Shown here: positions 23,620-27,842 of the stretch, piece by piece
Layout of the letters: each line of letters starts with the position of its first letter
Numbering within the stretch: position 1 is the stretch's first letter
NCBI RefSeq assembly: GCF_000003605.2
Contig: NW_003156237.1
Location: forward strand, 245,620-274,154
Length of the DNA stretch: 28,535 nucleotides
Direction: 5' to 3'
Origin: Saccoglossus kowalevskii
Taxonomy: Eukaryota; Hemichordata; Enteropneusta; Harrimaniidae
The notes under the pieces: generated by a model
What the model saw: the letters and a program-made list of their open reading frames with translations, nothing else
The model's database searches: none
Told to the model about the DNA's origin: nothing
Made by a program: the position numbers and the translations under genes

Positions 23620-26600
23620 ATGGAGAAAATACTAGTTTCTGTGCTGATGTTGATTTGTTTGTCCACAGTGACAACACACCCGACCTTAGTGAAAGACATC
23701 AACATGAATGTTGAAAAAAGGGGTGAGTTCTTCGCGTTTTTTTTTGCGAGCACAGTCCGTCTTCAGGGCTGACATCCCACGCTTAACTTTCCGAACGTCA
23801 TATTCATTCCCTACTTACAACTTTTACACTGTTATGTAATTTTCTATAATATCTCTGAAATCAAAATTATTGAAAAAATATGCCAAAAATTATGCAAGTA
23901 GAATTTGAGGATGGCAACAAAGAATAAAAATTAATGTAAGTTAGAGGGTCAAAAAAATGTCACAATATTTGTTGCTGATTTCATCCCCTAGACAATAACA
24001 GCGTTGGTTTTGATGGTCCGCCACCTGATGTACCAGACGAAGATGATCTTGGTGAGTCTGAGTATAATGTCCGTTTTATCGCTAAAATTTATTATTACAG
24101 TAACAGTGATCGTGTTTTATTTCACTGATTTACCTAGCTGATAGAACACCCGTTGGTCTTGATGGTCCCCCTCCTGATGTACCTGACGAAGAGGACGAAT
24201 CTGAGATTAAGACAAGATATATCCGTAACATTGAGAAAAGAGACTTAAAGGGAACAATTTATAGTAAGTCAGTCTTTGTTTTGTTATAAGATTCAAAGGA
24301 AAATATATATTATGTAATTTGGTTAAACATTAAAAGATGGTTTACAATCTGGATTGTTATTTATGTTTATAATAGTATACATTCGCTGAATTTAGCATCG
24401 CGATGATGATTCCGTACGTACTTTCAATTAGTATTGCGCACTAGTAATTCAAAGCGCATGTTCATTACAGGAAACGTAACAAGTTTGATACTTTTGTTTG
24501 TTTGATATTTTTTTTTAATTCCCTGTGATAAGACAGGTGACATTTAGCTGTCAGTTCACTAAATTCCCACCTCAACAGATTTATTGTTGTTTGAAATCTC
24601 AGATATCAGGAATCATGATGTCACGTAACTATTCTTACTTTCAGGTGACGGATGTTTTTACCCGGGGGAATTGCGTTACGGGAAACAGACAAGTGGACCA
24701 ACCGTTGCACCAATGGCACCTGGAACCGTTTTGCAGTACGAGTGCGACACCGGCTACACAATGCGCGGGGAGGCGTCCATTGAGTGTAAATACCATTCTA
24801 AATTAGGACACTATTGGAGTTTCTACATGCCAATTTGTACAAGTAAGTTGAAGCCCAATTACGTGTGTTGGCCAACTTCTAAACACGAAATACTGTAAAC
24901 AATGGCAGGTAACCAATTTTATTGAATCGGGCAACAACCTCGTGCATGTCACGTAATAATTATACCTTTAACAATAATTCCGATCTGTCACAGAACGCTA
25001 TAACAAAACCAGCACGACAGATCACTCACCATCAGTCCTCGCTAGCTACCCCGCCATCTTAGCCACCGCCTGAGTGTTTTCCTCCTGCCACAGAGGGCGC
25101 ACCTCGTAAAACCACTTATGCAAATTAATGTAAGAATAAATAATAAGAATTCATGACACGATCATATTACGGATGTGACGTCAGATCATAACGACTAATT
25201 CATTCATTATTCACAGAGGAATATGACTACGACCAGGTACTACGTCTGTCAAATAAGTTCTACGAAGCTCAACGTTCTGGTAAATTACCGAGTGATAACC
25301 GGATAGATTGGAGAGGTGACTCAGCCTTGGACGACGGGGCTATGGCTGGTAAAGATTTGTCAGGAGGATGGTACGACGGTAAGATATACTAAATATATTA
25401 GTATATGTTTTACATATAGTAACACTATTCTGGTGTATGTAAATGAAAATGTCAGTGGCGTTATTGTAACCTACATCAACATACACTTATTAGATATTGT
25501 ATGTTTCTCGTGGGCGTAGTATCATCGAAACATTCTGTCGCAATTGTTTGTTTCATAATTAGGCGTAAGCCATCTTAAGTACCAAATTGTAAGCGTTTGG
25601 TTTTGAAGAACATTCCTCTAAAGTTTTCAACAATTTGAATAAGTGTAAATATCACTCACACATAATACTAATATGTCTGTTTTGTTTTTATCTTAGCCGG
25701 TGATCACGTGAAATTTAACCTTCCAATGGCATCTGCAACTACACTATTGGGTTGGGGATTCATCGAGTTTTACGATGCGTACGAGGCCGCGGGCGAGGTC
25801 GGACATTTAATGGCCAATATTCGGTGGTCCTGCGAGTATTTTATAAAAACCTTAGATGACGACCCAGATATAACGAAGATCAGAGTGTACTACCAGGTAT
25901 GATTCATTTCCTATCAAGGAGATTGACAGCTTGTTGTACAGACAGCACGAGTCATAGTTACCAACACATAATCGCCACAGAAACACTATTATCTATAATT
26001 ACATTGTATATTATGGGATTGCAGCCATGTCGTTACAATTTATCTCACAAACACCACTGTAAAACTATTAACATGAGAAATACTGAAAAATACGATTTAT
26101 TTCATATATGTTACACACGTAGGGCTAATCTTGTTACACTGTTCAGGGGACTCTCATCAACCATCGCAAAGTACCGTTTTCTGCGAGTTTTTGGTCTTTG
26201 TTTTCACCGCGAGGGTTGCCAGGCGGTAGAAAATGCCCGGATGTCCGCCCCCGAGGATACATTCTAGAATATTCTGACATAAATTCCACCCTATAAAGTT
26301 GCATTAACCAATCACATGGTAAGAACTCATCGACACCATTAATAGTACATGATGTCATCTGTTATAATTAGCTATCAATGGAGGTGTCTTTCCGCAGTTC
26401 ATTTGTTAAGATTACAGTTATAATAACTAAAGTTATATTTATATTTAAATAAATAAACCTTTAATATGCCACCAACACCCACTAGACCAACACCCATTTA
26501 TTTCAGTGAGATAAATGAATAAGTAAATGACTAATATTACATTTTCCAGGTAGGAGATCCGTTAAAGGACCATAGCTACTGGGGGAAAGCCGAAAACATG

Positions 26601-27842
26601 GCGGGAGACAATCGCGACGTGTACACCTGTACGTGTGGCAGCCACTGTTCCGAAATAGCCGCAGAATCCTCAGCCGCCTTGAGCGTGTGTTCTATAGCGT
26701 TTAACATGTCCACACCATACAGAGGTAAAACTTCAATAGTTTCATCCATATTCGCAGATGCTTCTAACTGTTATTCAAAATTGCCGTTGTATGGGGGTGT
26801 AAGACACTGGGGCAATATAAATGTACTATATTCATAGACACATGGTTCGGCAACATATTCTTGTGGAACTAAAATAAATTCAGGTAAATGATGACAATTG
26901 TCTAGATACGTATAGACGTATTGGATGTTGATGATAGTATTAGAAGCAATAGAACATGTGTTGAAATGAGACGTGTAACAAAAAACTGTAACACTAGTTT
27001 TTGCACTAACATTGAATGCGCTTCCAGGAAAATGATATCATATCACAGTATATGCTCAACAAATGTATGTTAATTTTACAGACGTGGCATTCGCTAAAAC
27101 AGCCTTGGAGACCTCTAAACGCCTTTTCGAATTCTCTAAACACGGCGAGTGTAGAGGTTTTTACAGAAAAGATGGATTCTATAAGTATGTATGGCCATTG
27201 ATTTTACCTCCTCGAAGCATAATATAACATGACATGCCATAAACAAATAAAATAATAAATTAGTTAGCATACCACATTAGCCAGAGGTTTATGTTCATGG
27301 GCACTCGGAGCCCCGAAACGAACAAAATAGACCATGGTCTACTGTTTTTCCAATGTTATGTTCAATATGTGTGGTACAAACAAAATATATGTAGCAGAGC
27401 AAAGTTTTCGATGTAAATACCATTACACAAGCAAACAACACATACACAGATTATTCTTATGTTAGAACAATTTATTTTTAGCTATTTGCATAAATTTGGG
27501 TTCTCAGTGACATCATTTGTAGCACGCAATCACGACACTCACAAATTAATGGTACATTTTCTTAGGTCACGGAGCTATTGGGATGAAATCGTCGAAGCTT
27601 CCTTGTTCTTGTATTATGCTACGAGACACGGCGAATACTTGTCTGAAGCCAGTTTGGGCTACAGTAACACAGAAGATGTTGTTGAGCATCTTGTTTCAAA
27701 CGACAATTCCGATGTGTCAATGCCAGAGATGAACTCCGCCGATTTCATAACTGTCGCGAAGAGCGAGTTCTTCCTCAACACTGGCGCTGTTCAGGCCGTG
27801 GCGGCCTGCTTGAGTTGGGGTGATAAACGCCCAGTTGTTCAC
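23620..27842 (+). CDS. Secreted CCP/Sushi-GH9 endoglucanase-like protein, 5' nine exons (3' end outside window)
   Basis: Exons are 23620-23722, 23992-24051, 24138-24263, 24645-24842, 25217-25378, 25697-25896, 26550-26724, 27082-27184 and 27566-27842. They total 1404 bases (468 codons), every junction is GT-AG, and the frame is kept throughout. Residues 1-20 are a signal peptide ([20 protein letters not shown]). Residues 35-75 hold two copies of VG[FL][10 protein letters not shown]. Lys-Arg pairs stand at 33-34 and 88-89. Residues 97-162 form a CCP/Sushi module with Cys 100, 130, 144 and 161 and Trp154. GH9 starts near 164: RGDSALDDG, then [17 protein letters not shown] with the Asp pair 216/219, VGDP..DH.YWG (284-295), [13 protein letters not shown], and [16 protein letters not shown] near 380. 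GH9 inverting enzymes hydrolyse beta-1,4-glucans. The C-terminal HHR-type motif and acid Glu would lie in exons beyond 27842. The start is fixed by the signal peptide and an upstream in-frame TAA at 23602. Confidence 0.88.
23992..24263 (+). repeat. Tandemly duplicated exons encoding the acidic [10 protein letters not shown] unit
   Basis: Exon 2 (23992-24051) and exon 3 (24138-24263) share a 45-base core encoding [15 protein letters not shown] and [15 protein letters not shown]. By eye six of 45 bases differ and most differences are synonymous, so the duplication is fairly recent or constrained. The intron between them is 86 bases. Both exons are bounded by phase 1 introns, so either can be skipped without a frameshift. 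Confidence 0.8.
24645..24842 (+). other. CCP/Sushi module encoded by a single symmetric exon
   Basis: The exon gives 66 residues. They include GCFYPG, the proline-rich [20 protein letters not shown], then IEC, and a W...PIC end. The four-cysteine spacing and the C.TGY run are those of complement control protein modules, which bind proteins or glycans. One phase 1-1 exon per module is the classical form seen in mobile extracellular domains. Confidence 0.85.

Follow-up and report, generated by a model that had tools for sequence, protein, structure and literature searches.

The GH9 enzymes of animals are usually regarded as digestive cellulases. Some bacterial members of the family carry an N-terminal Ig-like module, and plant GH9 enzymes of the KORRIGAN type are membrane-anchored; the latter are not known to bear EGF or CCP modules. 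The Pacific oyster has seven endogenous cellulases, four of them GHF9, and in Corbicula japonica a cellulase is joined to a carbohydrate-binding module of family 2 (PMC11805347). GH9 in animals was likely inherited vertically (PMC6011409). The words CCP and sushi have 0 occurrences in PMC11805347 and PMC6011409. In the openly licensed literature we found no paper joining a sushi or complement control protein (CCP) module with GH9 or endoglucanase, which is weak evidence of absence, and none joining an EGF-like domain with a GH9 cellulase. The statement of the initial annotation, that no well-described animal cellulase of CCP-GH9 design is known, survives that search.

Here we describe such a gene in Saccoglossus kowalevskii. 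The window, i.e. the whole stretch of DNA that was analysed (28,535 nucleotides), corresponds to C4558:245620-274154 in a 572-Mb genome assembly of 4830 contigs. Nine exons at 23620-27842 of the window splice in frame into 468 stop-free residues, with GT donors on exons 1-9, AG acceptors from exon 2 on, and phases that match throughout (Table 1). The encoded protein opens with a signal-peptide-like start; two acidic Pro-rich repeats come next, followed by a single complete CCP (Sushi) module and the first part of GH9. The initial annotation had proposed that splicing joins these parts, naming the junctions 24263/24645 and 24842/25217, and had called for a domain scan; the in-phase model reproduces both junctions exactly, and a Pfam run places Sushi and Glyco_hydro_9 both above their cut-offs. 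The whole gene encodes 661 amino acids and runs past the window edge to C4558:279366, with a 2331-base N gap within the intron that separates the window exons from exons 10-12. Its 3' end was taken as the first stop read, and one more exon is possible.

Table 1. Exons of the CCP-GH9 gene (window positions unless C4558 is given) and of its paralogue.
Feature	Position	Strand	Content	Basis
Exon 1	23620..23722	+	start codon, signal-peptide-like start (20 letters); first EKR completed at exon 2 junction	
Exon 2	23992..24051	+	phase 1-1; acidic Pro-rich repeat (16 letters)	splice model
Exon 3	24138..24263	+	phase 1-1; acidic Pro-rich repeat (16 letters), second EKR before CCP	
Exon 4	24645..24842	+	198 nt, phase 1-1; complete CCP/Sushi, residues 97-162	Pfam PF00084, PDB matches
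Exon 5	25217..25378	+	GH9 start; ends GGWYD (first catalytic-motif Asp) + first base of Ala codon	
Exon 6	25697..25896	+	GH9; remainder of Ala codon, then GDHVKFNLP	
Exon 7	26550..26724	+	GH9; cysteine group CTCGSHC	
Exon 8	27082..27184	+	GH9	splice model
Exon 9	27566..27842	+	GH9; last exon within window	
Exons 10-12	C4558:277646-277832, 278394-278586, 279165-279366		GH9 gene continuation, beyond window	
Paralogue CCP exon	C4558:291970-291773	-	198-nt, phase 1-1	
Paralogue GH9 exons	C4558:287432 to 282255	-		

Glyco_hydro_9 (PF00759) scores 236.1 bits (E 1.3e-69) in the window part and 378.8 bits in the full-length model, where it spans profile positions 1-441 of 444; even with the Pfam threshold relaxed to E 10, that model matches no family other than GH9 and Sushi, and no carbohydrate-binding module. 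In the 661-residue model YDAGDH lies at 215, RPHHR at 589 and NEVTCD at 642, and DAGD, HHR and NEV...DYNAGF align with 8ihw, 3wc3 and 4zg8. DAGD, HHR and NEV are established catalytic motifs of GH9, the Asp of DAGD presumably being the base and the Glu of NEVTCD the acid of an inverting mechanism, by which the enzyme would cut beta-1,4-glucan chains outside the cell.

Upstream of the enzyme, exon 1 has a hydropathy peak of 3.32 at residues 4-12, assigned by eye as a signal peptide, and the protein should be secreted. Residues 35-96 carry a net charge of -11 across 62 residues, and EKR sites, assigned by eye as convertase sites, flank the acidic Pro-rich repeats before and after (residues 34 and 89). 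On entering the secretory path the protein may be cleaved by a proprotein convertase behind the EKR sites, releasing CCP-GH9. We consider it rather probable that the gene encodes a real secreted proenzyme, composed of a signal peptide, an acidic Pro-rich propeptide that contains KR sites, a single CCP and a GH9 beta-1,4-glucanase, and that it arose by insertion of a phase 1-1 CCP exon.

The module between propeptide and enzyme passes the Sushi profile (PF00084) modestly, with 25.7 bits in the window model and 25.2 in the full-length model against a cut-off of 20.7; its counterpart in a paralogous gene passes it as modestly (23.9 bits against 20.7). Each of the two copies has four cysteines and an invariant Trp before the last Cys, the copy in the window gene carries the motif YECDTGY, and PDB sequence matches across this part are mostly complement-type CCP proteins. 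AlphaFold2, run on the CCP exon alone with two sequences (its own and that of the paralogue), returned a model too poor to lend support, with a mean pLDDT of 49.8. With only 2 or 3 residues between the final cysteine of the CCP and the beginning of GH9, the module would lie close against the enzyme, and we infer that it sits on GH9 as a recognition, binding or support module.

Is the CCP exon truly part of the GH9 gene? That it comes from a separate gene, and that the fusion is an artefact of reading or assembly, is extremely improbable. One feature counts in favour of an artefact and against the fusion, a single polyA-signal-like hexamer at 25135 in the intron between CCP and GH9. Yet this intron measures just 374 bases and none of its six ATG-started open reading frames looks like a signal peptide by eye; no run of at least 10 N occurs between exons 1 and 9, the sole such run in C4558:267001-297000 being 274155-276485; the splice phases agree; and a paralogue has the same arrangement. 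The open frame of the first GH9 exon has no start codon upstream as far as the preceding stop. A separate upstream CCP gene, which the initial annotation had named as the finding that would overturn its reading, is very unlikely in view of the same CCP-GH9 order and phases in the paralogue. As far as genome sequence can answer, the CCP exon belongs to the GH9 gene, and we regard their fusion as very likely both real and old.

The paralogue lies on the minus strand of the same contig, the two genes standing tail to tail, with an identical CCP-GH9 order. In both genes the CCP occupies an exon of its own, of equal length and symmetric phase, and the entry phases agree between the genes at all nine of the nine exons counted from there. 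The two genes are identical at 36/66 residues of the CCP and 346/499 of GH9, and a cysteine group CTCDNPC in the paralogue matches that of exon 7. Synonymous differences are saturated (pS 0.84 in the CCP, 0.78 in GH9) and nonsynonymous differences fewer (pN 0.33 and 0.19). This marks an old duplication and suggests purifying selection on both domains; pN/pS is below 1 in both, with bootstrap ranges of 0.27-0.53 for the CCP and 0.20-0.29 for GH9, and the CCP is the less constrained of the two. The paralogue also has two exon-like stretches upstream of its CCP in which PPPAEL or LPPAEL occurs together with KR...KR motifs; the propeptide-like stretch at 295394 has no clear GT donor, and no signal-peptide exon was identified in 297000-293600, where M-started candidates occur. 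Its intron between CCP and GH9 exceeds 4 kb and contains, by eye, reverse-transcriptase-like open reading frames.

Within the CCP, the last 22 residues, on the side of the enzyme, are better kept between the two genes (17/22 identical) than the first 44 (19/44). This pattern, like the linker of 2 or 3 residues, would suit an ordinary digestive cellulase whose CCP may merely aid folding or stability, as Ig-like modules may do in some bacterial GH9 enzymes; intact GH9 motifs and closest solved relatives that are endoglucanases point the same way. We regard this as possible, if on the unlikely side, and the relatives of the gene within the genome, described below, speak against it.

There is a large GH9 expansion in this genome. 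At least 33 GH9 first exons are present, this being the number placed while further GH9 exons also occur; many of them are clustered on shared contigs, eight on C3460 alone. Two of the 33 loci, both on C4558, showed a CCP. Searched genome-wide, the CCP of the window gene matches strongly only the two C4558 CCP exons (E 7.3e-43 and 3.9e-20), the next match (E 5.0e-4) falling on a contig without a GH9 match among the 95 scored of 135 GH9 candidates. Further CCP matches (150 scored of 268 candidates) all lie on contigs without a GH9 match among the same 95, in a search where both C4558 CCP genes score below the weakest match listed. A CCP pattern scan of the GH9 loci likewise finds the two C4558 genes only, within upstream stretches of 3.1-9.6 kb for L009-L028, some with N, and of at most about 4 kb for L029-L043 (about 2 kb for L042 and L043). 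A diverged CCP near another GH9 could have been missed by these searches.

A different module stands before the enzyme at 7 of the 33 loci (L012-L018, all on C3460), where an EGF module with the D-[IV]-DEC signature and the GH9 start share one open frame and exon with no splice site between them. EGF_CA and GH9 both exceed their Pfam cut-offs in the two of these seven that were scanned, and more EGF-like open reading frames lie upstream. Four of the seven (L012, L013, L014 and L017) have a hydrophobic, membrane-anchor-like start, and L015 holds a long Thr/Ser/Pro-rich open reading frame. The readable junctions between anchor-like, EGF and GH9 parts in L012 and L013 are in phase 1, one L013 acceptor being unreadable. 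The products of L012-L018 are possibly membrane-tethered GH9 enzymes. The finding widens from one gene to a GH9 group with extracellular modules.

How could such modules have been added? At 24 of 26 non-EGF loci the splice into the first GH9 exon falls in phase 1, the acceptors having been chosen by pyrimidine content only, with lower-scoring picks in other phases at several loci. The automatic tally over all 33 loci gave 25 in phase 1, 6 in phase 2 and 2 in phase 0; acceptors inside the first codon (L009, L022, L034, L035, L036) were assigned to phase 1 by hand, L026 and L031 are ambiguous and each has a phase-1 alternative, and the seven EGF loci stand outside the count with an exon that begins further upstream. 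Because entry is so consistently in phase 1, phase 1-1 modules such as the 198-nt CCP exon or the EGF exons could be added without breaking the frame. We suggest that a phase 1-1 CCP exon was inserted between the propeptide exons and the GH9 catalytic exons, and that this insertion would have preceded the duplication that gave the tail-to-tail paralogue. A pair of loci on C344 (L042 and L043) has a signal-peptide-like start and an acidic Pro-rich stretch ending in KR before GH9, with no CCP seen within about 2 kb upstream. This suggests that the propeptide was already in place when the CCP came in behind it; the C344 design is perhaps the type onto which it was added. The CCP-GH9 gene would then be a clear example of an ancient enzyme extended by exon shuffling.

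Two other loci of the family deserve mention. L020 has on its minus strand, some 1.1 kb ahead of where GH9 begins, an open reading frame with a signal-peptide-like start and a coiled-coil-like stretch, in which no Pfam family scores above its cut-off; it may represent a further N-terminal extension or a gene of its own. In L050 (C2960:60850-61080) the second GH9 exon is interrupted by an in-frame stop and has AGN where AGD is expected, and the locus is likely a pseudogene.

In a FastTree phylogeny of 28 of the 33 loci, with about 115 amino acids each, local supports and a midpoint root, the two CCP genes group together (support 0.998) and join six EGF genes (0.856, a moderate support from a short alignment). 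The tree left out L014, whose second exon is cut, L020 and L041, whose second exon was not found, L036, which has a stop in its second exon, and L032. EGF modules, and in some genes an anchor-like exon, are unexpected in gut enzymes; given that the nearest group in the tree carries them, an extracellular role other than digestion seems the more plausible, and the digestive reading is weakened, indirectly. One such role would be that of an immune or microbe-facing effector, in which the CCP would recognise either a surface or a partner of complement type and the GH9 domain would cut beta-glucan of microbes or algae. CCP modules typically occur in recognition proteins, and the acidic propeptide with its KR sites would fit an effector; we nevertheless hold this specific role to be improbable. 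More broadly, one may speculate that one GH9 clade left digestion and gave rise to extracellular or cell-surface enzymes that remodel glycans or face microbes, phase-1 shuffling having produced a branch whose CCP follows a propeptide cut by a convertase and a sister branch with EGF repeats, in part with an anchor, a scenario we put forward tentatively and with some doubt. A group of GH9 enzymes that bear CCP or EGF modules would mean that animals also use this family outside the gut.

Other features were seen in the window. On the plus strand, 8317-9096 encodes a bZIP protein (PF00170 above cut-off) that presumably resembles CREBZF, 4693-4971 is an exon of ribosomal protein L11 (uL5), and 647-1057 is an open reading frame with a weak, below-cut-off match to a zinc-binding reverse transcriptase (E 0.061), perhaps a retroelement remnant. 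Neither Rfam, run at gathering thresholds, nor ARAGORN gave a match in the window, and a 187-residue CCP-GH9 query had no match to phages, as expected of an animal gene. Elsewhere in the assembly, COX1 on contig C4830 reads ATA as Met at conserved places (10 ATA codons in the stretch) and its single AAA as Lys, a usage that fits the invertebrate mitochondrial code and argues against an echinoderm, hemichordate or cnidarian.

The best PDB sequence matches of the enzyme part are the solved GH9 endoglucanases 8ihw, 3wc3, 4zg8 and 1ks8, some of them presumably from earthworm and termite, which belong to the same family and share its motifs. These structures match the GH9 part alone, the propeptide and CCP being extra in our gene, which furthermore has CTCGSHC; residues of about 244-345 of the enzyme part fall outside the alignments shown. 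The EGF-GH9 relatives may, like the KORRIGAN-type enzymes, be type II membrane GH9 proteins, a likeness that implies no kinship. Bacterial GH9 enzymes with an Ig-like module also place a beta-rich module directly before GH9, but with an Ig-like fold and not a CCP. The Corbicula japonica cellulase (PMC11805347) is, like ours, an animal cellulase joined to a binding module, but there the module is a carbohydrate-binding one, which a CCP is not.
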